Positions 11,270 to 51,478 of a stretch of 64,000 nt of DNA are shown in pieces. The translations under genes and the position numbers were made by a program. The notes below the pieces were generated by a model. The model was not told where the DNA came from, made no database searches, and saw only the letters and a program-made list of their open reading frames with translations. Source of the stretch: Solimonas variicoloris DSM 15731 (GTDB lineage Bacteria; Pseudomonadota; Gammaproteobacteria; Nevskiales; Nevskiaceae); contig NZ_KB907927.1 in NCBI RefSeq assembly GCF_000382285.1, forward strand, positions 1 through 64,000, written 5' to 3'. The stretch's first letter is position 1, and each line of letters begins with the position of its first letter.

Positions 11270-11380
11270 GACGCCGCAGATTAGCGGCCGGCAGCGGGTC
11301 GCGCATGGATCGTCGTCAAGCCGGAATGGCGGGCGCGGCCAGCGCCGAAAAAATTCTTGAAGCGAAGATGAAAAATGGGC

Positions 11381-11408
11381 TTCCCAAGGCGCTTTCATTG
11401 GGTATAAT
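11381..11408 (+). promoter_or_regulatory. Sigma-70 promoter for the tRNA pair
   Basis: A perfect -10 hexamer TATAAT lies at 11403-11408. It is preceded after 16 bases by TTCCCA at 11381-11386 (4 of 6 matches to TTGACA). A GC-rich discriminator (GCGCGCCCC) follows, the kind seen at stringently controlled stable-RNA promoters. The tRNA-Ala gene begins 16 bases after the -10. Confidence 0.75.
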
Positions 11409-11423
11409 GCGCGCCCCTGTTGT

Positions 11424-11499
<76 letters not shown>

Positions 11500-11514
11500 T
11501 TTCAGGATTGCCTC

Positions 11515-11590
11515 GTCCCCATCGTCTAGAGGCCTAGGACATTACCCTTTCACGGTAAGTACCGGGGTTCGAATCCCCGTGGGGACGCCA
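11515..11590 (+). tRNA. tRNA-Glu (anticodon TTC)
   Basis: This is a 76-base cloverleaf with CCA encoded. The acceptor GTCCCC pairs with GGGGAC, the anticodon loop carries TTC within CCCTTTCACGG, and the T arm is GGGGTTCGAATCCCC. It is the second gene of the tRNA pair. No integrase or duplicated 3' end is visible nearby, so there is no sign that it serves as an attachment site. Confidence 0.97.
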
Positions 11591-11704
11591 TCATGGCCGC
11601 GCGACGCGGCATCCGGCGATCCGTTTCGAACGTTTCCTTTCTGCTTGTTGGTACCGTGTGCCGCGCCGTTTCGCGCGCGCCCTTGCTTGCGTTGGCGACG
11701 CTGT

Positions 11705-12100
11705 TCAGCGCGCGGCGAGCGCCTCGGGCTGAACGGCGTCGTGCAATGCCGAGAATAGCGCGCTGTCCGTGACCGGCTTGAACAGCACGCGATAAGCGCC
11801 GGCCTCGCGCGCGTGCGCGACGGCACGGCTGTCGGGCCAGTGCGCGGTGAGCACGATCACCGGAATGTCGGCATGCTGCCCGCCGAGCGCGGTGATGAGT
11901 TCGACGCCACCGCCGGCCGGCATGCTGAGATCGGTGAGGATGCAGGCCGGTGTCTCGCTGTGCGTGGCGGCGATGCAACTGGCGATCGAGTCGAACTCGC
12001 GGACCCGCCACGCATCGAACTTGAGCAGGCTCGCGAGCGAGTTGCGCACCGGTCCGTCGTCGTCGACGACATAAATCAAACGCTGCGGATCGGTATACAT
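11705..12100 (-). CDS. Single-domain response regulator (FixJ/NtrC-type receiver)
   Basis: The product is 131 residues made only of a CheY-like receiver. The acidic cluster is VVDDD at 11-15, the phosphoacceptor is Asp57 in ILTDLSMP, Thr85 sits in VLTAH, and the conserved Lys108 in FKPV is present, so it should be phosphorylatable. There is no DNA-binding or enzymatic output domain. It would act through protein contacts or as a phosphate sink for a kinase encoded elsewhere. No histidine kinase gene is adjacent. The start ATG at 12100 is the only one giving a full receiver. Confidence 0.85.
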   Translation of the reverse strand: MYTDPQRLIYVVDDDGPVRNSLASLLKFDAWRVREFDSIASCIAATHSETPACILTDLSMPAGGGVELITALGGQHADIPVIVLTAHWPDSRAVAHAREAGAYRVLFKPVTDSALFSALHDAVQPEALAAR

Positions 12101-12272
12101 GACGGCGGTTCCTCACGATGCGCAGGCAGTGTGAGGGCGGCGGTCGATGACGGAACTGACGCAGGTCAAGTCGCGCCGGACGCGCCATAGAGATTTCGTA
12201 CCGGCACTCGGCGGGCGGCCACCGCTGCTGGCTTCGAGGTCGCGCACGATCGGTGCGCGTGACAGCGGTCTT

Positions 12273-12893
12273 CTAGCGGTTCGGCCGCAGCACGACCTGG
12301 GCGCGGCAGCGATCGTCGAGATCGGTGCCACAGGCGCGCGGATTCAGCGCGGTGTCGAAGCACAGCCGCACCTCGCGCAGCCAGCGGCCGCGGCATTGCA
12401 CGGCGATGCCGTCGGCGTCGAACCCGTGATTCTCGCGCGCGAAGCTGCGCTCGATGTCGGTCACGCTGGTGCTGAGGTAATCGTCCGGACCCTGGTAGGC
12501 GATCGGGATCGCGACCTTGCGGCGCACGCGCTCGACGAGCGTGAAGTACTCGTCCTGGCTGAGGCCCGAGCAGGTGCCGTGCGTGTCCCATTCATGCTGG
12601 ATGAGCTTTTCGCTCGGCATCGTCGGCAGTAGGCGCGTGACGAGATCCTTCGGCACGCGCCCGCGACCGCCGCAGCGCGAGGGATAGCCGCGCTCGTACT
12701 GCGGCCACAGGCCGTGCACGACGAAGCCGTAACGCTGCCGGCACTGCTCGTCACCGACGTTGAGCTCGCAATACTCGGGCGACCAGGACAGCGCCAGCAC
12801 CCAGTAATCGAAACGCCCGGGCTGGCCGTCGGCGGCCGCCCGGGCGCTGCACAGCAGGAACAGCAGCGCCGCCAGGAATCCGCTGCGCCGCAT
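12273..12893 (-). CDS. Ribonuclease T2 family protein, exported
   Basis: The product is 206 residues with a signal peptide (FLAALLFLLCSARAAA). Both T2 active-site blocks are intact: CAS-1 FVVHGLWPQ with His60, and CAS-2 HEWDTHGTC with His100, Glu101 and His105. Several cysteines (42, 51, 74, 108) fit the disulfides of the fold. It should be a periplasmic or secreted endoribonuclease cutting RNA through a 2',3'-cyclic phosphate, like Escherichia coli RNase I. It lies downstream of ppsA on the same strand but is separated from it by two strong hairpins, so it is probably a separate transcript. Confidence 0.92.
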   Translation of the reverse strand: MRRSGFLAALLFLLCSARAAADGQPGRFDYWVLALSWSPEYCELNVGDEQCRQRYGFVVHGLWPQYERGYPSRCGGRGRVPKDLVTRLLPTMPSEKLIQHEWDTHGTCSGLSQDEYFTLVERVRRKVAIPIAYQGPDDYLSTSVTDIERSFARENHGFDADGIAVQCRGRWLREVRLCFDTALNPRACGTDLDDRCRAQVVLRPNR

Positions 12894-12936
12894 GCGCCCT
12901 CAGGCCTTCTGGCCGGCCGAGGTGAGCGGGAACCAG

Positions 12937-12991
12937 GAAAACGTCCGGCGGACGTTTTCCCCCGCGTACGCTCCGCCATCGATGGCGGAGC
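12937..12991 (-). terminator. Tandem hairpins after ppsA
   Basis: Two perfect inverted repeats stand back to back. At 12937-12959 the arms are GAAAACGTCC and GGACGTTTTC with a 3-base loop. At 12970-12991 the arms are GCTCCGCCAT and ATGGCGGAGC with a 2-base centre. They lie between the ppsA stop and the RNase T2 start. On the minus strand the second arm of the inner hairpin ends in TTTTCC, so it can act as an intrinsic terminator or attenuator for ppsA. The GC-rich outer one would rather protect the 3' end. Confidence 0.55.
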
Positions 12992-13018
12992 AGGTCACGG
13001 CGCCGTGGATGGCTCCAC

Positions 13019-15391
13019 TCATTTGGCTTGCTGCGAGAGATAGAGCCAGGTTTCCACCACGGTGTCCGGGTTCAGCGACATCGACTCGATGCCTTCGTCG
13101 AGCAGCCAGCGCGCGAGGTCCGGATGGTCGGAGGGGCCCTGGCCGCAGATGCCGACGTACTTGCCGTGCTTGCGGCAGGCTTCGATCGCCATGTGCAGCA
13201 TGCGCTTGACCGCCTCGTCGCGCTCGTCGAACAGGTGCGCGACCAGACCCGAGTCGCGGTCCAGGCCGAGCGTCAGCTGGGTCATGTCGTTCGAGCCGAT
13301 CGAGAAGCCGTCGAAGTATTCGAGGAATTTGTCGGCGAGCACGGCGTTGCTCGGCAGCTCGCACATCATGATCAGCTGCAGGCCGTTGTCGCCGCGCTTG
13401 AGGCCGTTGGCGGCGAGGATCTCGTTGACCTGACGGGCCTCGTCGAGCGTGCGCACGAACGGGATCATGATCTTGATGTTGGTCAGGCCCATCTCGTCGC
13501 GCACGTACTTGAGCGCTTTGCACTCGAGCTCGAAGCACGGACGGAACGACGGCGCGATGTAGCGCGAGGCGCCGCGGAAGCCGATCATCGGGTTCTCTTC
13601 GTGCGGCTCGTAGCGCTTGCCGCCGATGAGGTTGGCGTACTCGTTCGACTTGAAGTCGGACATGCGCACGATCACCGGCTCCGGCGCGAAGGCCGCGGCG
13701 ATCGTCGCCACGCCTTCGGCGAGGCGCTTGACGAAGTAGTCCACCGGGCTGCCGTACGGCGCGATCATCGGGTCAATGATGCGGCGCAGGTCAGCCGGCT
13801 GCTGGTCGAGTTCGAGCAGCGCCTGCGGGTGGATGCCGATCTGGCGGTTGATGATGAATTCGAGGCGGGCGAGGCCGACGCCCTTGTTCGGCAGCGCGGC
13901 GAAGCCGAAGGCCTGCTCCGGCGTGCCGACGTTCATCATGATCTTGACCGGGATGTCCGGCATCTTGTCGAGCGCGATCTCGTCGACCGCGAAGTCGATG
14001 TTGCCGTCGTAGACGAAGCCGGTGTCGCCTTCGGCGCAGGAGACCGTGACCTTGGCGCCGTCCTTCAGCACTTCGGTCGCGTTACCACAGCCGACGACCG
14101 CCGGGATGCCGAGTTCGCGGGCGATGATCGCCGCGTGGCAGGTGCGGCCACCGCGGTTGGTGACGATCGCGCTGGCGCGCTTCATGATCGGCTCCCAGTC
14201 CGGGTCGGTCATGTCGGTGACGAGCACGTCGCCGGCCTGCACGCGGTGCATCTCGCTGATCGAGCTCAGCAGGCGCACGGTGCCGGCGCCGATCTTCTGG
14301 CCGATGGCGCGGCCTTCGGTCAGCTTCGGACCCTTGCCCTTGAGCTTGTAGCGGCGCAGCACGTTGGCACTGGCGCGCGACTGCACGGGTTCCGGGCGGG
14401 CCTGCAGAATGTAGAGCTGGCCGTCGACGCCGTCCTTGCCCCACTCGATGTCCATCGGCCGGCCGTAGTGCTCCTCGATCGTCAGGGCCTGCACGGCGAG
14501 GGCTTCGACTTCGGCGTCGTTCAGCGAGAAGCGAATGCGGTCTTCGACCGCCACCGGCGCAAATTCGATGGTCTTGCCGACCGACTTGTCGGCCGAGTAG
14601 ACCAGCTTCTTGGCCTTCTCGCCGAGGCCGCGCTTGAGGATCGCCGGGCGCTTGGCGCGGATGTTCGGCTTGTAGACGTAGAACTCGTCCGGATTGACCG
14701 AACCCTGCACGACGGCTTCGCCGAGGCCGTAGCTGGAGGTGACGAACACGGCGTCGCGGAAGCCCGACTCGGTGTCCATCGTGAACATGACGCCCGAGGC
14801 GCCGAGGTCCGAACGGACCATGCGCTGCACGCCGGCCGACAGGGCGACGGCGGCGTGGTCGAAGTGATGGTGGACGCGGTAGGCGATCGCGCGATCGTTG
14901 TACAGCGACGCGAACACTTCCTTGATCGCGTGCAGGACGTTGTCGATGCCGTGCACGTTGAGGAAGGTTTCCTGCTGGCCGGCGAAGGAGGCGTCCGGCA
15001 GGTCCTCGGCGGTGGCCGACGAGCGCACGGCGACCGAGATCTCGGCGCCCGATTCGGCGACCAGCTGCGTGTAGTGCTCGCGGATTTCCTGCTCGAGCGC
15101 GGCCGGGAACGGCGCCTTCAGCACCGCCTCGCGGATCGCCTTGCCGGTCTGCGCCAGCGCCGTGACGTCCTCGATGTCGAGCTTGGCCAGCATCTCGTTG
15201 ATGCGCTGGGCGAGGCCCTCGTGCGCCAGGAAGTGGCGGTACGCCTCGGCCGTGGTCGCGAATCCGTTCGGCACGCGCACGCCGGACTGCGCGAGGTTGC
15301 GGATCATTTCGCCGAGCGAGGCATTCTTGCCGCCGACGATCTCGACGTCGTGCATGCCAAGTTCGGAGTACCAGAGGACGTTGCGGGTCAC
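13019..15391 (-). CDS. ppsA: Phosphoenolpyruvate synthase
   Basis: This gluconeogenic enzyme converts pyruvate, ATP and water to phosphoenolpyruvate, AMP and phosphate in the cytoplasm. From the GTG at 15391 it has 790 residues, close to the 792 of the E. coli enzyme, and starts [25 protein letters not shown] just as that enzyme does; a GTG at 15424 would add 11 residues. Domains in order: the N-terminal ATP-grasp pyruvate/ATP-binding domain ([20 protein letters not shown]), the phosphohistidine swivelling domain with [20 protein letters not shown] carrying the catalytic histidine, and the C-terminal PEP-utilising TIM barrel ([25 protein letters not shown]). It is divergent from ppsR, its post-translational regulator. 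Confidence 0.97.
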
Positions 15392-29393: not shown

Positions 29394-29410
29394 TTGGCGA
29401 TATTCGCCAA
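29394..29410. repeat. Inverted repeat in the pspF promoter region
   Basis: This is a perfect palindrome, TTGGCGA-TAT-TCGCCAA, 20 bases before the pspF start codon. It could be an operator for pspF or an upstream activator site for the divergent psp promoter. It does not resemble a PspF site I can recall, so its protein is unknown. Confidence 0.45.
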
Positions 29411-29429
29411 CATCGAGCACAATGGCGCA

Positions 29430-30488
<1,059 letters not shown>

Positions 30489-30533
30489 GAATTTGCCGAC
30501 ATCGCGCGCGGCGGGCTTGCCGGCCGGCGATGC

Positions 30534-30549
30534 TGGCACGGAATTGGCA
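30534..30549 (+). promoter_or_regulatory. Sigma-54 promoter upstream of nasT-nasS
   Basis: The sequence TGGCACG-GAAT-TGGCA has a perfect -24 box and the -12 GC doublet at the right spacing (one mismatch in TTGC). The predicted start is near 30560, just ahead of the first hairpin of the leader. Nitrate-assimilation genes in related bacteria use sigma-54 with NtrC, so nitrogen limitation is the likely signal. I saw no clear NtrC site in the short space after pspF. Confidence 0.65.
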
Positions 30550-30568
30550 CACGAAAATCCCAGGGATT

Positions 30569-30646
30569 GCGGCAACGACGCCGCGCCGGTGCCTCCGGCT
30601 CCAGATCCCTGATCCGTTGGGTTTCGATCGCAGGACAAGGGCGTCC
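30569..30646 (+). ncRNA. ANTAR-responsive dual-hexaloop leader RNA before nasT
   Basis: There are two hairpins with six-base loops. P1 at 30569-30584 has stem GCGGC/GCCGC and loop AACGAC. P2 at 30633-30646 has stem GGAC/GTCC and loop AAGGGC, extended below a small bulge by GCAG/CTGC pairing (30630-30651). Both loops have A at position 1 and G at position 4, the pattern recognised by ANTAR antiterminators such as EutV and NasR/NasT. The 3' half of P2 is also the 5' half of the terminator at 30640-30675, so the two folds exclude each other. The gene behind the leader encodes an ANTAR protein, so the circuit would be autoregulatory. Confidence 0.75.
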
Positions 30647-30675
30647 GCTGCGCAACAGGCAGCCGACGCCTTTTT
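30640..30675 (+). terminator. Intrinsic terminator (attenuator) in the nasT leader
   Basis: The stem is GGCGTC-C-GCTGC paired with GCAGC-C-GACGCC (one C-C mismatch), the loop is GCAACAG (30652-30658), and TTTTT follows at 30671-30675. It ends 52 bases before the nasT start codon and overlaps P2 of the ANTAR leader, as expected for antitermination control. Confidence 0.8.
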
Positions 30676-30727
30676 CGTTTGCGGGCAGGCGTCGGTCGGA
30701 TGCAGGGAAGGACAGACACCGGGGAAG

Positions 30728-31423
30728 ATGGAGATGCGTACGCTGGATGAAGCCGAACCGTCGTGGGACAAGCGAGCTGCCGCCATGAACCGGCCGGCCG
30801 CCAGCCTGCGCGTGGTGCTCGTCGACGACGACGGCGCGCGCGCCGCGTTCGTGACGCAGGCGCTGCGCGCCGCCGGCCACGATGTGGTGGCACGCCTCTC
30901 CGCCAACGAGGACCTGCTCGCCGCCGTGCGGCGCGTGCGTCCGGACGTGATCCTCGTCGACATGGACAACCCGGCGCGCGACGTGCTCGATAACTGTGCG
31001 GCAGTGACCCAACAAGTGCCGCGTCCGATCATTTTCTTCGCCCGCGACTCCGATCCGGACACGATCTCGCGCGCGGTGCGCGCCGGCGTCTCCGCCTACA
31101 TCGTCGACGGCATGGCGGCACATCGACTGAAGCCGATCCTCGATGTCGCGATCGCGCGTTTCCACGAACACCAGAAGCTGCGCAACGAACTCGACGAAAT
31201 GCGCACGCGTCTGGCCGACCGCCGCGACGTCGAGCGTGCCAAGGCGCTGCTGGTGCGCCTGCGCAAGCTCGACGAAGCGCAGGCCTACACGCTGCTGCGC
31301 AAGAGCGCGATGGCGCGCCGCATCACCATCGGCGAGGCCGCACGCACCGTGCTCGCCGCCGCCGAACTGCTCGATGCCGGCCAGGAACCGCTGGGCGGTG
31401 CCGCGCCGGAGGAGTCTTCATGA
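30728..31423 (+). CDS. nasT: Nitrate-responsive ANTAR antiterminator NasT
   Basis: The product is 231 residues. The N-terminal receiver domain (LRVVLVDDDGARAAFVTQAL, VILVDMDNPARD, IIFFARDSD) is followed by an RNA-binding ANTAR domain (RRDVERAKALLVRLRKLDEAQAYTLLRKSAMARRITIGEAARTVL). In the absence of nitrate it is held by NasS; when freed it binds paired hexaloop hairpins and prevents termination. ATGs at 30728, 30734 and 30785 are possible starts. The first is listed, but the GGGGAAG directly before it better suits 30734. The stop overlaps the nasS start (ATGA), so the pair is translationally coupled. Confidence 0.9.
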   Translation: MEMRTLDEAEPSWDKRAAAMNRPAASLRVVLVDDDGARAAFVTQALRAAGHDVVARLSANEDLLAAVRRVRPDVILVDMDNPARDVLDNCAAVTQQVPRPIIFFARDSDPDTISRAVRAGVSAYIVDGMAAHRLKPILDVAIARFHEHQKLRNELDEMRTRLADRRDVERAKALLVRLRKLDEAQAYTLLRKSAMARRITIGEAARTVLAAAELLDAGQEPLGGAAPEESS

Positions 31424-32634
31424 ATCTGGTTCTGCCGTTTCGTCCCGAGATCAGCCACCTCACGGTCGGCTACATGCCGCTGCTCGATTCGGCGCCGCTG
31501 CTGTGGGCGGCGCACCGCGGCTATTTCCGCGCCGCCGGCCTCGACGTCGAACTGGTCCGCGAGGTTTCGTGGGCGAGCCTGCGCGACCGCCTCGCGTACG
31601 GTGCGCTCGACGCCGCACAGTGCCTGGCGCCGATGCCGGTCGCGGCGACGCTCGGCGCCGACGGCGTCGGCGTGCCGATGGTCACCGGCCTGTGCCTTTC
31701 GCAGGGCGGCTCGGCGATCACTTTCTCGCGCACGATGGCCGATCGCATCGGCCTGCGCAGCGGCATGAGCGTGGTCGACAGCGCTGCCGCCGTCGCCCAG
31801 TACGTGCGTGGCGGCGGGCGCCTGCGTCTCGCGCACGTGTTCGCGTTCTCGATGCACCACTACCTGCTGCGCGACTGGCTCGCGCTCGGCGGTCTCGACA
31901 GCGACGTGCCCGGCATCGAATTCACCGTCGCGCCGCCGCCGCAGATGGTGCGCCTGCTCGAAAGCGGCGCGGTCGACGGCTTCTGCGTCGGCGAGCCGTG
32001 GAACACGGCTGCGGTCAAGGGCGGGCTCGGCTTCGTGGTGACGCCGACCAGCAACATCTGGGACGGCGGCGCCGAGAAAGTGCTCGGCGTCACCCGCGAG
32101 TGGGCGCAGCAGTTCCCGCACACGCATCGTGCGCTGCTGGCCGCGGTGATGGCAGCGCTGCAGGAACTGTCCAGCCGCGACGTCACCCGCGAGCTCGCCG
32201 CGCTGCTGCACCGCCTGCAGGTGCTGGCGGTGCCGGATTCCTGGGTCGAGGCGGTGCTGCGCGGCCAGGGCGTCGGCGCCGCGCCGCGCTTCACCAGCGG
32301 CCTGCAGGCATTTCCGCGCCGCTCGCAGCTGATGTGGTGCGCGCTGCAGATGCTGCGCTGGCGGCAGTGGAGCCGGCCGCTGAGCCTCGCCCAGCTGACC
32401 GCGTCGGTCTGTGACGTCGCCGCGTTCTGCGACGCCGCGGCGACGCTCGATCTGCCGCTGCCGCTCGTCGATTCGATCCGCGAGGGAGCCGGTGCGGTCG
32501 CGCTCGGCGCCGACGGCGCGACCGTCGAATCGCGCTTCATCGACGGCGGCGAACTCGACCCGGCCGACCCGGCCGCGTATCTGGCCGCGCGCGGCTGGAA
32601 CCGCGAGGCGGCGCGCGCCGCGGTCGCCGGTTGA
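31420..32634 (+). CDS. nasS: Nitrate sensor NasS (NrtA/CmpA-like, cytoplasmic)
   Basis: The product is 404 residues and related to the nitrate/bicarbonate-binding proteins NrtA/CmpA, but it has no signal peptide, as expected for the cytoplasmic sensor NasS. Binding-fold segments include LTVGYMPLLDSAPLLWAAHRGYF, YGALDAAQCLAPMPVAATLG and GAVDGFCVGEPWNTAAVK. By family knowledge it sequesters NasT and releases it on binding nitrate or nitrite. Coupled to nasT by a 4-base overlap. Confidence 0.92.
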   Translation: MNLVLPFRPEISHLTVGYMPLLDSAPLLWAAHRGYFRAAGLDVELVREVSWASLRDRLAYGALDAAQCLAPMPVAATLGADGVGVPMVTGLCLSQGGSAITFSRTMADRIGLRSGMSVVDSAAAVAQYVRGGGRLRLAHVFAFSMHHYLLRDWLALGGLDSDVPGIEFTVAPPPQMVRLLESGAVDGFCVGEPWNTAAVKGGLGFVVTPTSNIWDGGAEKVLGVTREWAQQFPHTHRALLAAVMAALQELSSRDVTRELAALLHRLQVLAVPDSWVEAVLRGQGVGAAPRFTSGLQAFPRRSQLMWCALQMLRWRQWSRPLSLAQLTASVCDVAAFCDAAATLDLPLPLVDSIREGAGAVALGADGATVESRFIDGGELDPADPAAYLAARGWNREAARAAVAG

Positions 32635-41571: not shown

Positions 41572-42042
41572 TTACTTGGTGACGATCACGCGCGTGAACG
41601 GCGCCAGCGCGGCGATCAGGTGGTTGCAGCTGTAGTACGGGATCTGGTTGCGCTCGCAGGCGTTGTACGCGGCTTCGACGACGGCGTTGAACTGCGTCAT
41701 CGTGATGCCGAGATCGGCGTGCGCGGCGCTCATGCTGGCGCCCTGGTACTCGACCTTGGCGCCGAGCACCATCTGCTCCAGCTGCGTGTTCAGCGCGATC
41801 TGGCGCTCGACGTTGCCGAACTCCTTGAAGATGTAGTTGATGCGGTTGTCGAGCATGATGTAGTAGAACAGCGACTCGACCCAGTTGTGGACGCCGTACT
41901 CGCCGCCGAAGCTGGCGACTGCCGAGCTCGGGATGCCGAGGATCGGTTTGGTTTTCTGCTCGGCGGCGAAGGCCGGCTGCAGGGAGGCGACCATCAGCGC
42001 CGTGCCGGCCGCGATCGCGAGTTTTGCCTTGCTGACTTTCAT
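41572..42042 (-). CDS. Exported group-1-type truncated haemoglobin-like protein
   Basis: The product is 156 residues with a signal peptide (LAIAAGTALMVASLQPAFAA). The mature part follows the truncated-globin pattern: LFYYIMLDNRINYIFKEF (helices B-C), LEQMVLGAKVEYQGASM (E region), and AAHADLGITMTQFNAVVEAAY with the proximal haem-ligand histidine. It probably binds haem in the periplasm and could carry or detoxify O2 or NO or pass electrons. Most truncated haemoglobins are cytoplasmic, so the signal is notable. It has three cysteines, unusual for the family. It is next to the FMN-binding protein and DUF3034 genes on the same strand. Confidence 0.75.
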   Translation of the reverse strand: MKVSKAKLAIAAGTALMVASLQPAFAAEQKTKPILGIPSSAVASFGGEYGVHNWVESLFYYIMLDNRINYIFKEFGNVERQIALNTQLEQMVLGAKVEYQGASMSAAHADLGITMTQFNAVVEAAYNACERNQIPYYSCNHLIAALAPFTRVIVTK

Positions 42043-43277: not shown

Positions 43278-43922
43278 CGATGTCCGGTTTGAAATCGAGC
43301 GGCTTTGCCCGACTCCCTTTGACGCGTCTCGTGTGCCTATCCGTGGCGCACGGTGGAACGAAACGCAAAGCCTGTGCCAATCATTGCCGAACGATGGCAG
43401 CCGAAGGCCGGAGAAGACCGCGGAGCGTCGCCGTCACGCCGCGCTGAAACGCAGTTCTGCGTAGGAGAAATCGACATGCGTCGTGATGCCGGACGACAGC
43501 GTGCGTGCACGTCTTGATCGCGGCGCACGCGCGCATGGCGCGCTGCGGCCGGCGGCGCGCGCCGCATGGTGCGTTGCCGCATGCTGGCGCAGAAATGTTT
43601 CGTACTGGGGCGCCGCGCACCGCGCTGTGGCGCTGCGCGCGCGGCCGCGCATCGTGCTCGTCGGCGCGGTGGCAGGCCGGCGTGTCGGCGAGCGGGATGA
43701 CGCGCGGCGCCTGCTCGCGCGTTCCTTAAATGGAATGGCGAGCGATGGCGACGCGAAGCCAGGGCGCGTGCGCGGATCGCGGGCGCCAGGCGTCGCGGCG
43801 ATGCGTCGCGCGATCGCTGCGACGCCGCGCCTCGCCTTGTGGCACAACGCTTGCTGCGCATTTCGCGCGCGTGATTAGGAATCAGCGCACGAGCAGGCAT
43901 CGTCGCCCGTTCACGGACATCG
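43278..43922. other. 645 bases between two outward-facing terminators, no assignable gene
   Basis: The segment is rich in GCGC/CGCG runs and has long open frames on both strands (for example 43483-43878 on plus and 43434-43847 on minus), but all translate to Arg/Ala-rich sequence with no recognisable domain, so I treat them as compositional. A good ribosome-binding site (AGGAG) precedes an ATG at 43475 on the plus strand, but that frame stops after 13 codons. A small RNA, a very short peptide or a decayed gene are possible. Confidence 0.4.
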
Positions 43923-43960
43923 AAGTCCACGCCGGTCCCCCGACCGGCGTGGACTTTTTT
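43923..43960 (+). terminator. Strong intrinsic terminator, plus strand
   Basis: A perfect 15-base stem AAGTCCACGCCGGTC / GACCGGCGTGGACTT with loop CCCC (43938-43941) is followed by a T run to 43960. It would end a rightward transcript from the preceding 645 bases and stands 105 bases before the OmpA-like gene. Its flank shares 17 of 18 bases, in inverted orientation, with the flank of the terminator at 43234-43277. Confidence 0.85.
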
Positions 43961-44065: not shown

Positions 44066-45529
44066 ATGAAGACGTTGAGAAAAGGATTTCGACGCGGCCT
44101 GGTGCCGATGGCGGTGCTGACCGCGTTCGCGGCGCCGGCCGCGCAGGCGCAGGACAGCTGGCTCGACGACACCTACGTCGCGCCGATGGCGTCGTACTCG
44201 ATCGCCGACAGCGATCGCCATACCGACGATGCGTTCGGCGGCACGCTGGGTCTCGGCTGGCGCCTGTCCGATCGCGTCGAAATCGAGTTGCTCGGCACCT
44301 ACCTGCAGTACAAGGCCGACGACGGCAATTCCAACGAACCCTGCGGTTTGCTGCGGCGCTGCACGCCTTACGAGGATCAGGAAGTGTCCGGCGGCGGCGT
44401 CGGCACCAACCTGTTCCTGACGCCGTACACCTTCGGCGGCCTGTTCCTGCACCTCGACGTGATGGCGGCCAGCAATGCGGTCTACCACGCCGGTCTCGGC
44501 CTCGACCTGCCGCTCAACGATCGCGGCTTCGCGGTCCGCGCCGAGGCGCTGTGGCAGTCGAACTACGACTGGGATCTGAAGGAACCGGTCTTCAACCTCG
44601 GCCTGCGCATTCCGCTCGGTTCGCATCGCGAGCCCAAGGTCTACCAGCCGGCCGAGCCGGTGCAGGTCGTCGAACCGGTCGCGCCGCCGCCACCGCCGCC
44701 GCCGCCACCGGCGCCGTGCACCATGGGCGCCGACGGCAGCGTCGACCTCAGCGGCTGCAAGACCGGCGACACGGTCGTGCTGCGCGGCGTGAACTTCGAG
44801 TTCGACAAGTGGAATCTCACGCTCAACGCCAAGGGTCTGCTCGACCTGGTCGTCGATGCGCTGCAGAAGCGTGCCGACATCAAGGTCGAAATCGACGGCC
44901 ACACCGACAGCAAGGGCTCCGACAGCTACAACCTGAAGCTCTCGGACCGCCGCGCCAAATCGGTGATGGACTATCTGCTCGCCAAGGGCATCGCGCCGTC
45001 GCGGCTGGCGTCGAAGGGCTTCGGCGAATCGATGCCGATCGCCGACAACGCGAGCGACGAGGGACGCGCGATCAACCGCCGCGTCGAGCTCAAGGTCGTC
45101 GAATCGAGTCAGGGCGCGGTGACGGTCGAGCAGGCCGGGCAGCCGGCGCAGACCTATGCCCCGGCCGTCGCGCCGGCGCCAGCGCCGGCCGCAGTGCCGG
45201 CCGCGATGCACGAGCACGAGACGCCGATGCCGATGCCGATGGCGACACCGGCTCCGGCGCCGGCCCCGGTCGCGGCGGCCACCGGCGGCACGACGGTGAC
45301 GATCGAGAACATGGCGTTCGGTCCCGGCGTGCTGACGGTCGCCGCCGGCAGCACCGTGACGTTCCTGAACAACGACGGCTCGAATCACATCGTGCGCTTC
45401 GCCGACGGTCAGCAGAGTCCGCGCCTGCCGATGGGCCGCACGTGGACGCGGACCTTCACGACGCCGGGTGAATATCCGTACGTGTGCATGATTCACCCGA
45501 CGATGAGCGGCAAGATCATCGTGCAGTAA
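44066..45529 (+). CDS. OmpA-family protein fused to a C-terminal cupredoxin
   Basis: The product is 487 residues. It has a signal peptide ending AAPAAQAQ (about 28) and an N-terminal beta-barrel of about 160 residues (YVAPMASYSIADSDRHTDD... to FNLGLRIPLG). A polyproline linker precedes the OmpA/Pal peptidoglycan-binding domain (VNFEFDKWNLTLNAKG, VEIDGHTDSKGSDSYN, LSDRRAKSVMDYLL, GRAINRRVELKV). A second linker rich in Met and His (MHEHETPMPMPMATP) leads to a C-terminal cupredoxin of about 80 residues with all type-1 copper ligands: His in SNHIV, and Cys, His and Met in YVCMIHPTM. It is thus an outer-membrane porin-like anchor carrying a copper site. AAGGGG precedes the start. Confidence 0.88.
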   Translation: MKTLRKGFRRGLVPMAVLTAFAAPAAQAQDSWLDDTYVAPMASYSIADSDRHTDDAFGGTLGLGWRLSDRVEIELLGTYLQYKADDGNSNEPCGLLRRCTPYEDQEVSGGGVGTNLFLTPYTFGGLFLHLDVMAASNAVYHAGLGLDLPLNDRGFAVRAEALWQSNYDWDLKEPVFNLGLRIPLGSHREPKVYQPAEPVQVVEPVAPPPPPPPPPAPCTMGADGSVDLSGCKTGDTVVLRGVNFEFDKWNLTLNAKGLLDLVVDALQKRADIKVEIDGHTDSKGSDSYNLKLSDRRAKSVMDYLLAKGIAPSRLASKGFGESMPIADNASDEGRAINRRVELKVVESSQGAVTVEQAGQPAQTYAPAVAPAPAPAAVPAAMHEHETPMPMPMATPAPAPAPVAAATGGTTVTIENMAFGPGVLTVAAGSTVTFLNNDGSNHIVRFADGQQSPRLPMGRTWTRTFTTPGEYPYVCMIHPTMSGKIIVQ

Positions 45530-45532
45530 ACG

Positions 45533-45562
45533 CCGTTGCCCGGGCACGCCGGCCGGCAACGG
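45533..45562 (+). terminator. Possible hairpin after the OmpA-cupredoxin gene
   Basis: Arms CCGTTGCC and GGCAACGG enclose a GC-rich 14-base loop, 3 bases after the stop codon. There is no U-tract, so it may only stabilise the 3' end. The rest of the gap up to 45748 shows nothing else I can assign. Confidence 0.35.
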
Positions 45563-45748
45563 CCGGCGCGCTCCGGGCGAGGCGGTGCGGAGATTTTTGT
45601 GGTGCGGCTTGCGCCCTCTGGCGGAGCAGCATGCGCGGATGCAGTGCGCAGAGGACCGACGGCAGCGCGTCGCCGTCGCCCGCGTGTTCCGTTGCGAGGC
45701 AGGCGGAGCCCGGATCTGCACCGTTTTTAGTAGAGCTGTCACATTTTC

Positions 45749-45763
45749 TGGCATACGGTTTGC
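45749..45763 (+). promoter_or_regulatory. Sigma-54 promoter of the nitrate assimilation operon
   Basis: TGGCAT-ACGGT-TTGC is a full match to the -24/-12 core with correct spacing. Transcription should start near 45774, exactly at the base of the first leader hairpin. The genes behind it (transporter, nirB, nasA) are classic NtrC/sigma-54 targets. A clear NtrC palindrome was not found upstream. Confidence 0.8.
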
Positions 45764-45773
45764 GATATGCCAG

Positions 45774-45823
45774 GCAGGATCAGCGACGATCTTGCATAAC
45801 CGTCTGCGGTCAACGACGCCCGC
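45774..45823 (+). ncRNA. ANTAR-type hexaloop leader of the nitrate operon
   Basis: P1 (45774-45795) is an 8-bp stem GCAGGATC/GATCTTGC with one G-U pair and loop AGCGAC. P2 (45806-45823) has GCGG/CCGC plus one mismatch and a C-G closing pair around loop AACGAC. Both loops carry A1 and G4, the ANTAR recognition bases. P2 is followed by a U-rich stretch (TTTCTTCTTTT, 45830-45840), but I see no strong competing terminator stem, unlike the nasT leader. The probable regulator is NasT, encoded 14 kb upstream. Confidence 0.65.
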
Positions 45824-45852
45824 GCCCCGTTTCTTCTTTTGGGAGCACGAGC

Positions 45853-47208
45853 ATGTCGAAGGCCACATCCATTCAGCTGTTCAGTTTGTCCAGCCCGCAG
45901 ATGCGGGCGTTCCATCTTTCCTGGCTGGCGTTTTTCGTCTGCTTCTTCGCCTGGTTCGCGGTCGCCCCGCTGATGCCGGTCATCAAGGGCGAGTTCGGCC
46001 TGAGCAAGGATCAGATCGCCAACATCAACATCGCGGCGGTCGCGATCACCATTCTCACGCGACTGATCATCGGCCCTTTGTGCGACAAGTACGGGCCGCG
46101 CAAGATCTACACCGCGCTGCTCGTGTTCGGCGCGATCCCGGTGCTCGGCATCGCCCTGATGAAGAGCTATGAAGGCTTCCTCTTCTTCCGCCTGCTGATC
46201 GGCGCGATCGGCGCGAGCTTCGTCATCACCCAGTACCACACCTCGGTGATGTTCGCGCCGAACGTGGTCGGTACCGCCAACGCGGCGGCGGCCGGCTGGG
46301 GCAATGCCGGCGGCGGCGTCACGCAGACGGTCATGCCGCTGGTGCTCGCGGCGATCATCAGCTTCGGTGTCGACAAGGCCTTCGGCTGGCGCGTGTCGAT
46401 GATCGTGCCGGGCGTGCTGATGCTGATCGTCGCGCTGCTGTACTGGCGCTACACCCAAGACTGCCCGGACGGCAACTATCAGGAATTGCGCGCGCGCGGC
46501 GTCGAGATCGAGAGCGGCAAGAAGGGCGGCTGGGCGGTGTTCAAGGCGGCTTCGGCGAACTACCGCGTGTGGATGCTGTTCGTCACCTACGGCGCCTGCT
46601 TCGGTCTCGAACTGTTCGTCCACAACGTCGCGGCGAGCTACTACGTCGACCGGTTCGACCTCGACCTCAAGACCGCGGGCCTGGCGGCCGGCAGCTTCGG
46701 CCTGCTCGCATTGTTCGCGCGCGCGCTCGGCGGCTGGATCTCCGACCGCGTTGCCAGCCGCAAGGGCCTCGATGCGCGCACGCTGCTGCTGTTCGCGCTG
46801 ATGCTCGGCGAGGGTATCGGCCTGCTGTGGTTCTCGACGACCACGTCGGTGACGATGGCGGTGGTCGCGATGCTGGCCTTCGGCCTCTGCACGCACATGG
46901 CCTGCGGCGCGACCTATGCGCTGGTGCCGTTCATCGACCGCGCTTCGCTCGGTGGCGTCGCCGGCATCATCGGCGCGGGCGGCAACGTCGGCGCGGTCGC
47001 GGCCGGCTTCGTGATGAAGGGCGTCGGCGATGTGCAGCAGACCTTCGCCTGGCTCGGCGGTTTCGTCGTGCTGTCGTCGCTGTGCGCGATCGCGGTGCGC
47101 TTCAGCGCCGCGCACAAGGCGCGCGAGAACGCGCTCTACGAGGAAGCGCTGGCGCAGCGTCTGGCGCTGCGGCAGTCGACGGCGGGAGCGGTGCCGGAAG
47201 CGGCGTGA
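45853..47208 (+). CDS. Nitrate/nitrite transporter (MFS, NarK/NasA type)
   Basis: The product is a 451-residue major-facilitator protein with about twelve membrane segments. The nitrate-porter signatures are present: RLLIGPLCDKYGPRK after TM2, and the glycine-rich nitrate motif GWGNAGGGVTQTVMP near residue 150 with its counterpart GIIGAGGNVGAVAAGF in the second half. The arginines of the substrate site are found around FRLLIGAIGASFVITQY. It brings in nitrate (and possibly exchanges nitrite) for the reductases encoded just downstream. It is first in the operon, behind the sigma-54 promoter and leader; the ribosome-binding site is GGGAG. Confidence 0.95.
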   Translation: MSKATSIQLFSLSSPQMRAFHLSWLAFFVCFFAWFAVAPLMPVIKGEFGLSKDQIANINIAAVAITILTRLIIGPLCDKYGPRKIYTALLVFGAIPVLGIALMKSYEGFLFFRLLIGAIGASFVITQYHTSVMFAPNVVGTANAAAAGWGNAGGGVTQTVMPLVLAAIISFGVDKAFGWRVSMIVPGVLMLIVALLYWRYTQDCPDGNYQELRARGVEIESGKKGGWAVFKAASANYRVWMLFVTYGACFGLELFVHNVAASYYVDRFDLDLKTAGLAAGSFGLLALFARALGGWISDRVASRKGLDARTLLLFALMLGEGIGLLWFSTTTSVTMAVVAMLAFGLCTHMACGATYALVPFIDRASLGGVAGIIGAGGNVGAVAAGFVMKGVGDVQQTFAWLGGFVVLSSLCAIAVRFSAAHKARENALYEEALAQRLALRQSTAGAVPEAA

Positions 47209-47245
47209 AGGCGCCCGCGATCCATTCGTCACGACAAAAATCAAA

Positions 47246-49813
47246 ATGAATCACCGCAAGATTGTCGTCGTCGGCCATGGCATGGTCGGCCACAAGCTGC
47301 TCGAGGCGCTCGTCGAGCGCCCCGAGCTTTCCCTGACCGTGCTCGCGGAGGAGCCGCGTCCCGCGTATGACCGGGTCCATCTGACCGACTTCTTCTCCGG
47401 CCGCAGCGCCGACGACCTGCTGCTGGCGCGGCCGGACTTCGCCGAGGCCTACGGCGTCGACCTGCGGCTGTCGGCGAAGGCCACCGCGATCGATCGCGCC
47501 GCGAAGCGCGTGACGCTCGCCGACGGCGCGAGCGTGCCGTACGACATGCTGGTGCTGGCGACGGGCTCGTTTCCGTTCGTGCCGCCGATCCCGGGCAAGG
47601 AGCGTCCGGGATGCTTCGTCTATCGCACGATCGAGGATCTCGAAGCGATGCGCGCGGCGGCGGCGAGCGCGAAGATCGGCGTCGTCATCGGCGGCGGCCT
47701 GCTCGGCCTCGAGGCGGCGAAGGCGCTGAAGGATCTGGGCCTGACGACGCACGTCGTCGAGTTCGCGCCGCGCCTGATGGCGGTGCAGGTCGACGACGGC
47801 GGCGGCCGGCTGCTGCGCCGGAAGATCGAGGAACTCGGCGTCACCGTGCACACGCAGAAGAGCACGACCGAGATCGTCGACGGCGAGAAGGCGAGACACA
47901 AGCTCAAGTTCGCCGACGGCAGCGAGCTCGAGACCGACATGATCGTGTTCTCGGCCGGCATCCGGCCGCGCGACGAACTCGCGCGCCAGGCCGGCCTCGA
48001 AGTCGGCCCGCGTGGCGGCATCGTCGTCGACAACGCCTGCCGCACCTCCGATCCGGACATCTACGCGATCGGCGAATGCGCGCTGTGGGACGGCAAGATC
48101 TTCGGTCTGGTCGCGCCCGGCTACGAGATGGCACGCGTCGCCGCCGATCACATCGCCGGCAATGCGGCGCTGGCGTTCGCCGGCGCCGACATGAGCACCA
48201 AGCTGAAGCTGATGGGCGTCGACGTGGCGTCGATCGGCGACGCCCACGGCGCCACCGCGGGCGCGCTGTCGTACCAGTTCGCCGACGAGGTCCGGCAGGT
48301 CTACAAGAAGCTGGTCATCTCCGCGGACCGCCAGCGCCTGCTCGGTGCGGTGCTGGTCGGCGACGCGGCCGAATACGGCGATCTGCTGCAGATGATGCTC
48401 AACGGCCTGGTGCTGCCCGAGCAGCCGGAGGCGCTGATCCTGCCGCTCGCGGCGGGCGCCGGTGCGGCGAAGGCGTCGGGTGTCGGTGTCGACGCGCTGC
48501 CGGCGAGCGCGCAGATCTGCTCGTGCAACAACGTTTCCAAGCAGGCGCTGTGCGAGTCGATCGCCAGCGGCTGCACGACGCTGGCGGCGCTGAAGAAGAG
48601 CACCAAGGCGGCGACCACCTGCGGTGGGTGCGCGCCGCTCGTCACGCAGGTGCTGAAGGCGGAGCTGAAGCGCCAGGGCGTCACCGTCAACAACCACCTC
48701 TGCGAGCACTTCCCGTACTCGCGCCAGGAGCTGTATCACCTGGTGCGCGTCGGCAAGCTCGAAACCTTCGAGCAGGTGCTGCACAAGCACGGCCGCGGCC
48801 TCGGCTGCGACATCTGCAAACCGACCGTCGGCTCGATCCTCGCCAGCTGCTGGAACGCCTTCGTGCTGCAGAAGGAGCACGCCGCGCTGCAGGATTCCAA
48901 CGATTACTACCTCGCCAACGTGCAGAAGGACGGTACGTACTCGGTCGTGCCGCGCGTGCCGGGCGGCGAAATCACGCCGGACAAGCTGATCGCGATCGGT
49001 GCGGTCGCCAAGAAGTACGGCCTCTACACCAAGATCACCGGTGGCCAGCGCATCGACCTGTTCGGCGCGCAGGTGCATCAGCTGCCGGCGATCTGGCGCG
49101 AGCTGATCGACGCCGGCTTCGAGTCCGGCCACGCCTACGGCAAGGCGCTGCGCACGGTGAAGTCCTGCGTCGGCAGCACCTGGTGCCGCTACGGCGTGCA
49201 GGACTCGGTCGGTTTCGCGATCGATCTCGAAAACCGCTACAAGGGCCTGCGCTCGCCGCACAAGATCAAGTTCGCGGTGTCCGGCTGCACACGCGAGTGC
49301 GCCGAGGCCCAGGGCAAGGACGTCGGCATCATCGCCACCGAGAAGGGCTGGAATCTCTACGTCTGCGGCAACGGCGGCATGAAGCCGCGCCACGCCGAGT
49401 TGCTCGCTGCCGATCTCGACAGCGCGACGCTGATCCGCTACGTCGACCGCTTCCTGATGTTCTACATCCGCACCGCCGACCGCCTGCAGCGCACCAGCGT
49501 GTGGCGCGACAACCTCGAAGGCGGTCTCGACTATCTGAAGGATGTCATCGTCAACGACAGCCTCGGCATCGGCGCGGAGCTGGAAGCCGAGATGGCACTG
49601 GTCGTCGCCACCTACCAGGACGAGTGGAAGACGGCGATCGAGGACGAGCAGACGCTCAAGCGCTTCCGCACCTTCGTCAACAGCGACGCGGCCGACGATC
49701 ACGTGGTCTTCGTCGAGGAGCGCGGCCAGATCCGGCCGGCGCGCGCCGAGGAGCGCGCGACGTTCAAGGGCATCCCGGTGACGGCGGCCGCCGGCGCGGA
49801 GGAGGTCCGATGA
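47246..49813 (+). CDS. nirB: Assimilatory NAD(P)H nitrite reductase large subunit
   Basis: The product is 855 residues, the normal length, reducing nitrite to ammonium in the cytoplasm. Domains in order: the FAD/NAD(P)H-binding reductase part (VVVGHGMVGHKLLE, VVIGGGLLGLEAA, DIYAIGECA), a BFD-type [2Fe-2S] domain (ICSCNNVSK ... TTCGGCAPL), and two nitrite/sulfite reductase halves with the sirohaem-[4Fe-4S] cysteines in SCVGSTWCRYG and SGCTRECAEAQGKD. It overlaps the next gene by 4 bases (ATGA), whose N-terminal domain supplies the small subunit. Confidence 0.97.
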   Translation: MNHRKIVVVGHGMVGHKLLEALVERPELSLTVLAEEPRPAYDRVHLTDFFSGRSADDLLLARPDFAEAYGVDLRLSAKATAIDRAAKRVTLADGASVPYDMLVLATGSFPFVPPIPGKERPGCFVYRTIEDLEAMRAAAASAKIGVVIGGGLLGLEAAKALKDLGLTTHVVEFAPRLMAVQVDDGGGRLLRRKIEELGVTVHTQKSTTEIVDGEKARHKLKFADGSELETDMIVFSAGIRPRDELARQAGLEVGPRGGIVVDNACRTSDPDIYAIGECALWDGKIFGLVAPGYEMARVAADHIAGNAALAFAGADMSTKLKLMGVDVASIGDAHGATAGALSYQFADEVRQVYKKLVISADRQRLLGAVLVGDAAEYGDLLQMMLNGLVLPEQPEALILPLAAGAGAAKASGVGVDALPASAQICSCNNVSKQALCESIASGCTTLAALKKSTKAATTCGGCAPLVTQVLKAELKRQGVTVNNHLCEHFPYSRQELYHLVRVGKLETFEQVLHKHGRGLGCDICKPTVGSILASCWNAFVLQKEHAALQDSNDYYLANVQKDGTYSVVPRVPGGEITPDKLIAIGAVAKKYGLYTKITGGQRIDLFGAQVHQLPAIWRELIDAGFESGHAYGKALRTVKSCVGSTWCRYGVQDSVGFAIDLENRYKGLRSPHKIKFAVSGCTRECAEAQGKDVGIIATEKGWNLYVCGNGGMKPRHAELLAADLDSATLIRYVDRFLMFYIRTADRLQRTSVWRDNLEGGLDYLKDVIVNDSLGIGAELEAEMALVVATYQDEWKTAIEDEQTLKRFRTFVNSDAADDHVVFVEERGQIRPARAEERATFKGIPVTAAAGAEEVR

Positions 49814-51405
49814 ACGTCTCCGCAAGCTGGCAGCCGGTCTGCGCGATCGACGACATCGTGCCGGACACCGGCGTCGCGGCGCTCGTCGGCGGCCGCCAGA
49901 TCGCCGTGTTCCGCATGCGCGCCGACGATCGCGTCTACGCGATCGACAATCGCGATCCGTTCTCCGGCGCCAATGTGCTGGCGCGCGGCCTGGTCGGCGA
50001 TCTGCAGGGCGAGCGCGTGGTCGCCTCGCCGATCTACAAGCAGCACTTCAGCCTCGCCACCGGCCGCTGCCTCGAGGACGCCGCCCACAACGTGCAGGCC
50101 TACGCGACGCGCGTCGGCGACGGCATGATCTGGGTCGATCCGGCGCCGCTGCGCAGCTACGTGCCGGCGCCGAAGCCGCGCGAGCGCATGCGCCTGGTCG
50201 TGGTCGGCAACGGCATGGCCGGCATGCGCGTCGTCGAGGAGCTGATCGAGGCGGCGCCCGAGCTCTACGACATCGAAGTGTTCGGCGCCGAGACGCACGG
50301 CAACTACAACCGCATCCTGCTGTCGCCGGTGCTCGCCGGCGAGAAGAAGGCGGCGGACATCATGCTGCACGCGCCGTCGTGGTACGCCGAGCGCGGCATC
50401 ACCTTCCACGCCGGCGATCCGGTCGTGGCGATCGACCGCCCGCGCCGCACCGTGCGTTCGCAATCCGGCCAGACCACGAGCTACGACCGCCTGCTGCTGG
50501 CGACCGGCTCGAAGCCGATCGTGCTGCCGCTGCCGGGCCGCGATCTCGAAGGCGTGACGACCTTCCGCGGTCTCGACGACGTCGACACCATGCTGGCGAT
50601 CGCCAGCACGCACCGGCGCGCCGTCGTCATCGGCGGCGGCCTGCTCGGACTCGAAGCCGCGCATGGTCTGGCCAAGCGCGGCATGCAGGTCGAGATCGTG
50701 CATCTGGTCGACCGCCTGATGGAGCGCCAGCTCGACGCGCCGGCGGCGGCGCTGCTCAAGGCCAAGCTCGAAGCGCGCGGCATGAAGATCCACCTCGGTG
50801 CCAAGACCGAGGCCATCCTCGGCGGACCGGAGTCTTCCGGGCGTGTCAGCGGCGTGCGTCTCGCCGATGGCCGGGTGCTCGACGCCGACCTCGTGGTCAT
50901 GGCCGTCGGCATCCGGCCGAACATCGAGCTCGCGCAGAGCAGCGGCTTGCGCTGCGATCGCGGCGTGCTGGTCGACGACACCATGCAGACCTTCGATCCG
51001 CGCATCTACGCGGTCGGCGAATGCGTGCAGCACCGCGGCCGCACTTACGGCCTGGTCGATCCGCTGTGGGGCCAGGCCTACGTCTGCGCCGCGCAGCTCG
51101 CCGAGCGCGGCCACATGCGCTACCGCGGTTCGCAGGTCTCGACGCAGCTCAAGGTCGCCGGCATCGAGGTGTTCTCGGCCGGCGACTTCGAGGGCGGCGA
51201 GGGCACCGAGGATCTGGTGCTGCACGACGCGCAGCGCGGCGTCTACAAGCGGCTGATCCTGCGCGAGCACCGCGTCGTCGGCGCGGTGCTGTACGGCGAC
51301 ACGCGCGACGGCGCCTGGTACTTCGAACTGATCAGCGATGGCAGCGACGTCGGCCGCTATCGCAACCGGCTGCTGTTCGGCCGCGAGTTCGCCCTGCGCA
51401 GCTGA
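49810..51405 (+). CDS. NirD domain fused to an FAD/NAD(P)H oxidoreductase
   Basis: The product is 531 residues. Residues 1-112 are a NirD-like small subunit (VCAIDDIVPDTGVAALVGGRQIAVFR, VVASPIYKQHFSLATGRCLED, YATRVGDGMIWV). The remaining 420 residues are a pyridine-nucleotide-disulfide-type reductase (MRLVVVGNGMAGMRVVEELIE, AVVIGGGLLGLEAAHGLAKRG, DPRIYAVGECVQH) like the N-terminal half of NirB or the NasC/NasB electron-donor subunit. The fusion could serve both as NirD for nitrite reductase and as the NAD(P)H electron donor of nitrate reductase NasA, encoded next. It is coupled to nirB by ATGA. Confidence 0.9.
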   Translation: MNVSASWQPVCAIDDIVPDTGVAALVGGRQIAVFRMRADDRVYAIDNRDPFSGANVLARGLVGDLQGERVVASPIYKQHFSLATGRCLEDAAHNVQAYATRVGDGMIWVDPAPLRSYVPAPKPRERMRLVVVGNGMAGMRVVEELIEAAPELYDIEVFGAETHGNYNRILLSPVLAGEKKAADIMLHAPSWYAERGITFHAGDPVVAIDRPRRTVRSQSGQTTSYDRLLLATGSKPIVLPLPGRDLEGVTTFRGLDDVDTMLAIASTHRRAVVIGGGLLGLEAAHGLAKRGMQVEIVHLVDRLMERQLDAPAAALLKAKLEARGMKIHLGAKTEAILGGPESSGRVSGVRLADGRVLDADLVVMAVGIRPNIELAQSSGLRCDRGVLVDDTMQTFDPRIYAVGECVQHRGRTYGLVDPLWGQAYVCAAQLAERGHMRYRGSQVSTQLKVAGIEVFSAGDFEGGEGTEDLVLHDAQRGVYKRLILREHRVVGAVLYGDTRDGAWYFELISDGSDVGRYRNRLLFGREFALRS

Positions 51406-51478
51406 TTCCCGCGATGGCCATTCCGAAAAGAATCATGCTCCGCCGCCGCTGCGGCGGGGCGTTTGCAGGAGCGCGGGC

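Follow-up and report, generated by a model that had tools for sequence, protein, structure and literature searches.

A probable nitrate-responsive ANTAR attenuator ahead of the nasT-nasS operon of Solimonas variicoloris

Does NasT, a regulator that acts on leader RNAs, also act on the leader of its own operon? The question is raised by the DNA upstream of nasT-nasS in Solimonas variicoloris DSM 15731, which lies in a stretch of 64,000 nucleotides that was analysed as a whole (hereafter the window). The genome is that of a Solimonas close to S. flava (Nevskiaceae, Gammaproteobacteria). A sequence-only reading of the window had proposed that nasT-nasS possess their own sigma-54 promoter and ANTAR-type attenuator, through which NasT would control its own synthesis. 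Our analysis makes it fairly likely that positions 30534-30727 form an ANTAR attenuator that responds to nitrate and gives NasT control of its own operon, and positive autoregulation of nasTS, a known mechanism on an unusual target, is probable. If this is true, the amounts of NasT and NasS depend on nitrate through RNA, and the positive loop could lend nitrate assimilation a switch-like character or a memory. The features of the locus are collected in Table 1.

Table 1. Features of the nasTS leader, its operon, the two sister leaders in the window and the probable NasT targets.
Feature	Position	Strand	Basis or remark
Sigma-54-type promoter of nasTS, TGGCACGGAATTGGCA = TGGCACG-GAAT-TGGCA	30534-30549	+	expected start ~30560
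Predicted three-way junction	30561-30611	+	minimum-energy folds; closing helix 30561-30568/30604-30611 (8 pairs), P1, second hairpin 30585-30599
P1 hexaloop hairpin GCGGC-AACGAC-GCCGC (A1, G4)	30569-30584	+	sequence, fold, covariance model
P2 hexaloop hairpin GGAC-AAGGGC-GUCC (A1, G4), predicted antiterminator	30633-30646	+	sequence, fold, scan, covariance model
Intrinsic terminator (predicted), exclusive with P2, ends UUUUU	30640-30675	+	sequence, fold, scan; arms GGCGUC-C-GCUGC / GCAGC-C-GACGCC (30640-30651 / 30659-30670), then U5 (30671-30675)
nasT, receiver + ANTAR domain, 229 aa	30734-31423	+	PF00072, PF03861; start codon probable
nasS, nitrate-sensor-like protein	31420-32634	+	PF13379; start overlaps nasT stop
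Second sigma-54/ANTAR leader, before ompA-cupredoxin, narK, nirB, nasA	43840-43960	+	promoter 43840-43855, P1 GGC-AUCGUC-GCC 43896-43907, P2 43915-43928, terminator to ~43960
Third sigma-54/ANTAR leader, before DUF3034, truncated globin, FMN_bind, PepSY	43379-43234	-	promoter 43379-43364, P1 43311-43296, P2 43285-43272, terminator with U-run 43242-43234
Probable NasT target: OmpA/cupredoxin protein	44066-45529	+	Pfam
Probable NasT target: NarK-type transporter	45853-47208	+	Pfam
Probable NasT target: NirB	ending 49813	+	Pfam
Probable NasT target: NasA	51338-54181	+	Pfam

The promoter named in the sequence-only reading was present. It has one mismatch against TGGCACNNNNNTTGCW, its GG and GC doublets lie 10 bases apart within TGGCAC-N5-TTGCW, again with one mismatch, and a site of the same score was found at all nine orthologous nasT loci (six from Solimonas, the window included, and three from Panacagrimonas), 171-269 nt upstream of the aligned NasT start. 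By itself a sigma-54 motif is weak evidence: 1.37 sites were expected in the window, which held three, and 13 of 100 shuffles had as many or more. All three sites of the window precede ANTAR leaders. The promoter scan found no sigma-70-type promoter in 30300-30850, and no NtrC-like sites above chance were found upstream of the three sigma-54 promoters. Sigma-54 promoters before nasT genes were also among earlier predictions (PMC12316311). Given the probable nasT start, the leader would extend from about 30560 to 30733. Directly upstream and in the same direction lies pspF (29394-30488), a sigma-54 activator gene, which directly precedes nasT in four of the six Solimonas genomes (the window, S. 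flava, S. soli and S. marina).

Both A1/G4 hexaloop hairpins that had been described, with loops AACGAC (P1) and AAGGGC (P2), were recovered and formed in the predicted fold, and the overlap of the second with a terminator stem followed by TTTTT was confirmed in the sequence. When RNA 30560-30647 was folded, P1 and P2 formed (z -0.91); when RNA 30560-30680 was folded through the U-tract, P1 was kept and the terminator stood in place of P2 (z -2.85), the two structures being mutually exclusive in the folds. A generic terminator scan reported nothing at this leader, probably because a C-C mismatch interrupts the stem, and Rfam at gathering scores gave no match there, two tRNAs being its sole report for the window. 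P1 and P2 are 48 nt apart, which departs from the short spacing of eut-like leaders. As this distance ranged from 16 to 54 nt in other nasT-side leaders of the family and was 2-6 nt in several of the class, spacing was not treated as defining for NasT leaders.

Chance was assessed with dinucleotide-shuffled windows. The window had three sites with P2 overlapping a terminator, whereas 60 shuffled windows averaged 0.1 and never had more than 2; with a sigma-54 site added, the three window sites compared with none in 60 shuffles and none in 40 shuffles under a stricter scan. Sites with P2, terminator and a P1 of at least four pairs numbered none in the 60 shuffles and one in the 40. All three window leaders have P1, that of the second having only three pairs. 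A search with an ANTAR covariance model, which the sequence-only reading had put forward as a check, came out in favour of the leader. The model, R1, was built from 14 ANTAR leaders near nasT genes of other species, and included no nasT leader of the orthologous clade; two of its rows came from G042, grouped in the same genus (one of them leading a porin-like gene and, after it, a nasT paralogue), and one from Panacagrimonas. Rows were hand-picked among leaders with P1, others, chiefly those with very short linkers, being left out, and pairing counts in the 14-row alignment are partly built in, as the scan behind their selection demanded pairing. The highest-scoring R1 match was 30569-30646, both in the window (23.8 bits and E 0.0011, with the runner-up at 14.9 bits) and in the 4.1 Mb genome (E 0.07, runner-up at 17.1 bits); the E-values are rough because calibration was short, and by this measure the nasTS leader fits the profile of other ANTAR leaders. 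The second match in the genome (17.1 bits) was rejected, as it lies in an open frame resembling a permease by eye and has no leader parts; the scan found no leader parts at three other, weaker matches. The third leader of the window scored 13.9 bits (E 0.14), below one unrelated match, and the second gave no match up to E 10.

The proteins encoded behind the leader agree with a NasT-NasS pair in domains and neighbourhood, a receiver-ANTAR protein lying beside an NrtA-like one. NasT matched PDB entries 1s8n, 6wsh, 1qo0 (AmiR) and 4akk, of which we take 6wsh to be EutV and 4akk to be NasR; NasS matched nitrate transporter parts (E 5.4e-57) and NrtA 2g29 (E 2.4e-38). From the alignment, nasT probably starts at the ATG at 30734. 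The N-terminus was common to five of the six Solimonas loci (MRTLDE in the window, S. flava and S. terrae, MQMLDE in S. soli, MLDE in S. marina) and differed in S. aquatica and Panacagrimonas. In the genome, estimated to be 99.35% complete, a search at E up to 0.001 detected a single ANTAR protein, NasT (E 2.2e-13), and NasT is thus the only known candidate reader of the leader.

We postulate that RNA polymerase with sigma-54 would start near 30560. Without nitrate, NasS would hold NasT, P2 would not persist and the transcript would end at about 30675. With nitrate, NasS would free NasT, a NasT dimer would hold P1 and P2, and the terminator could not form; the opened leader would then give more nasT-nasS, along with the two target operons behind leaders of the same design. 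We infer the binding of NasT to the nasTS leader and the positive loop, and the release of NasT by nitrate and the ensuing antitermination are presumed by analogy with other species. Nitrate is reported to dissociate NasS-NasT in Paracoccus, where NasT binds the nasA leader (PMC3795266). The leaders of Paracoccus denitrificans nasA and Bradyrhizobium diazoefficiens nosR resemble that of Solimonas in the involvement of NasT and NasS, in hairpins with a terminator and in reported NasT binding (PMC3795266, PMC6759348), but they precede nitrate or denitrification genes whereas the Solimonas leader precedes nasT-nasS itself. In Paracoccus, a nasT-lacZ fusion is described as rising only from 11000 to 15000 units when nitrate was added to glutamate (PMC5424462), and nasT as being under NtrBC control with little effect of nitrate (PMC5424462 Table 3), so the Solimonas arrangement differs. 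Autoregulation by an ANTAR protein as such is not new, since amiR of Pseudomonas aeruginosa is reported to lie within the amiECBRS operon behind the leader that AmiR opens (PMC3369936); there, however, the operon opens with the amidase gene and amiR is carried along with it, whereas in Solimonas the regulator pair follows the leader directly. The eut leaders of Enterococcus faecalis are likewise described with A1/G4 hexaloops in P1 and P2 and with P2 overlapping a terminator (PMC3369931, PMC8934654). EutV differs in being a phosphorylated regulator with a constrained P1-P2 distance, 20 extra nt between the hairpins having reportedly abolished its antitermination (PMC8934654), whereas in the Solimonas leader the spacing is 48 nt and P1 sits in a junction, according to the fold. 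The nasF leader of Klebsiella oxytoca is also reported to work by nitrate-responsive ANTAR antitermination, but NasR is a one-protein sensor and nasF leads structural genes (PMC5424462, PMC3369936). Our searches of open-licence papers gave no leader dedicated to nasTS, though a published list of ANTAR RNA matches (PMC3369931 Table S2) may include a nasT leader.

Two sister leaders elsewhere in the window bear on the probable regulon. They point away from each other, their promoters some 460 bases apart, and P2 with a terminator was found at both places in S. flava, S. soli, S. terrae and S. marina (8 of 8 sites), the scan reporting a promoter at seven of these eight and P1 at six. With two such leaders before other operons, NasT seems to be a member of its own regulon, and it probably serves three operons, its own included. 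The genes behind the second leader (44066-54181) were assumed to form one transcript. In the protein encoded by the first of them, an outer-membrane barrel and an OmpA domain are joined to a cupredoxin at the C-terminus. The DUF3034 operon behind the third leader (43379-38429, minus strand) holds a group 1 truncated haemoglobin (41572-42042), which by eye is apparently exported and which matched HbN-type PDB entries (best E 2.8e-6) with no Pfam match, together with genes for FMN_bind and PepSY_TM proteins and, farther downstream, for ApbE. This operon is possibly a NasT-controlled periplasmic module for nitric oxide or electron transfer.

Conservation of the leader among the nine orthologous loci was uneven. 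P1 with A1/G4 was found in eight (six by scan, S. marina and P. perspica from sequence and folds), with loop letters 2, 3, 5 and 6 varying. P2 was an A1/G4 hexaloop in five (the window, S. flava, S. soli, S. terrae and S. marina), and the Panacagrimonas counterparts had a 7-base loop in two cases and AACAGC, which lacks G4, in one. Only the window, S. flava and two Panacagrimonas had a U-tract terminator; in P. perspica and S. terrae the stem was left and the U-tract gone, and no exclusive terminator was seen in the S. soli and S. marina leaders. Canonical P2 and U-tract terminator occurred together in two loci, the window and S. flava; from its promoter onward the S. flava leader is the same as that of the window. 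Neither hairpin, and hence no leader, was found upstream of nasT in S. aquatica. That locus (L238) has an NtrC-like palindrome, TGCACTGAAGCAGTGCC, 81 nt before its sigma-54 site, the best among the NtrC-like sites scanned, with 3 of 100 shuffles as good. Two Panacagrimonas genomes (L239, L240) carry two divergent nasT-nasS pairs, of which the window-type nasT has the long leader; for the other type the scan reported no site in these two genomes and one at -55 in the third.

When P2 was held, a P1-bearing junction was predicted in six of seven distinct clade leaders (three-way in four, with an extra small hairpin in two), the exception being S. soli; without this constraint it was predicted in four of seven. 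In the free folds, P1 did not form in S. soli, and P2 was absent from S. marina, P. perspica and one other Panacagrimonas. R1 gave the sister nasT leaders low scores, namely 18.1 bits in S. soli, 13.0 in S. marina and 12.2 in both S. terrae and Panacagrimonas OFTM46, with unrelated matches reaching 11-12 bits, and as it fitted P2 in these four but not the P1 assigned here, it supports P2 only; the leaders of P. perspica and the third Panacagrimonas gave no match at E up to 1. The sequence-only reading had made covariation of both hairpins in relatives a test of its proposal, and the covariation seen within the clade was thin. One pair of P1 was changed on both sides, whereas P2 had a single pair changed on one side (G-U). 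In the clade alignment 97.1% of cells were paired, with 10 of 500 shuffles as high. This gives modest support for P1 and thin support for P2.

With the terminator lost or weak in four of the nine loci and the leader not found in a fifth, the clade does not keep termination control of nasTS as a constant trait. The earlier proposal that the attenuator lets NasT control its own synthesis therefore stands in part: an ANTAR attenuator with its own sigma-54-type promoter does precede nasT-nasS, and NasT was the sole ANTAR protein found, but the proposed control would not be general among the relatives. The case for an attenuator rests on the window's own leader, and is directly supported by its elements, the two exclusive predicted folds, recognition by R1, the single detected ANTAR gene and the promoter in the orthologues. 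Against a working attenuator count the weak or missing terminators, the S. aquatica locus, the deviations in the P2 loop, the free folds that lack P1 or P2, the weak R1 scores in sister leaders, the 48 nt between P1 and P2, the small nitrate effect on the Paracoccus nasT fusion, the thin covariation and the lack of an NtrC-like site above chance. A bolder version, which we regard as speculative and unlikely in full, would be a self-amplifying RNA switch in which NasT opens its own leader and the junction-borne P1 bridges the long distance to P2, and in which S. soli, S. terrae and S. marina turned the element into a terminator-less NasT site on the nasT mRNA, a self-made sponge or some other feedback.

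Somewhat less likely again, the short terminated leader, or the terminator-less leader of the sisters, might mainly soak up NasT and damp the response, in the way that EutX/Rli55, an EutV site without a terminator, is reported to sequester EutV (PMC5821096). The retention of A1/G4 P1 and P2 sequences in S. soli, S. terrae and S. marina, where the U-tract terminator is gone, is in keeping with such a role, but the window's P2 is merged into a terminator and stands in cis to nasT, and the predicted terminated RNA has no formed P2. We consider it slightly more doubtful still that the element is the decaying remnant of an attenuator in an ancestor of the clade, nasTS now being expressed mainly by basal read-through; the degraded terminators, the S. 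aquatica locus and a P2 that varies only by G-U at one pair would fit decay, but loop letters 1 and 4 of P1 and P2 were kept in five Solimonas leaders while the others vary, and every part is intact in the window and S. flava. That the terminator merely ends transcription of pspF, which stops just upstream at 30488 in the same direction, and that the hairpins before it arose by chance, is very improbable, since a sigma-54 site separates pspF from the terminator and is conserved in Panacagrimonas, two genomes of which were examined and showed no pspF match near this nasT, the combination of P2, terminator and sigma-54 site was absent from shuffles, and R1 picks out the nasTS leader.

An attenuator serving nasTS itself is the reading we retain, and its distribution was found to be narrow. 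The remark that ANTAR leaders usually stand before target genes rather than nasT-nasS holds: a strict scan of about 520 nt upstream found a leader at 6 of 74 nasT-type loci of the family, against 0.13 per shuffled set, and at none of 69 in the rest of the gammaproteobacterial sample (shuffles 0.03). The family sample of 74 places excluded the second G006 copy, G037:C7 and G010:C105, and also weaker matches (best E ~1e-10) assumed to be other receiver proteins; the class sample took 69 of 75 places, omitting the window's own locus, G109, G072, G164, G241 and G100. The six leaders (the window, S. flava, G014, G049, G050 and G008) all had a sigma-54 site, and three had P1 of at least four pairs. 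At 35 of the 74 family loci a sigma-54 site (score at least 8.3) lay within 100 nt of the aligned nasT start, leaving no room for such a leader. The scan did find leaders at other places within these nasT-centred loci: over 659,893 bases, with L001, L032-L034 and L080-L114 left out, it gave 28 rows that had P1 or a promoter, a count that includes nasT leaders and some loci twice. On a tree of 141 NasT proteins (of 143, two fragment translations being dropped), the label 'leader', hand-set on 12 rows and including terminator-less ones, required five changes, at least four of them forced by well supported branches, which suggests that the leader was gained or lost several times.

A P2-terminator leader was found in three other nasT lineages of the family. 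Among the six leaders of the strict scan, those of G014, G049 and G050 have P2, terminator and promoter and no P1 by scan; R1 fitted a P1 loop AACGGC closed by a mismatch in G014 (20.3 bits), gave 11.4 bits in G049 and had no match in G050 at E up to 1. The parts are of known kinds, their placement before nasT-nasS is unusual and the taxonomic reach is small. If the reading is true, the leader places a regulator in its own regulon, with nasT leaders in several lineages of one family, and the close relatives offer a natural series (intact, without terminator, without leader) for testing the benefit of autoregulation. Near the G014 nasT, another R1 match (21.7 bits) lies on the opposite strand (L011:2640-2693, plus strand). 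In G042 and G044, of the same genus, an ANTAR leader is followed by a porin-like gene and then a nasT paralogue (L225:341-2386 and L226:6315-8426, minus strand), which, from gene order, appears to be the same loop by another route.
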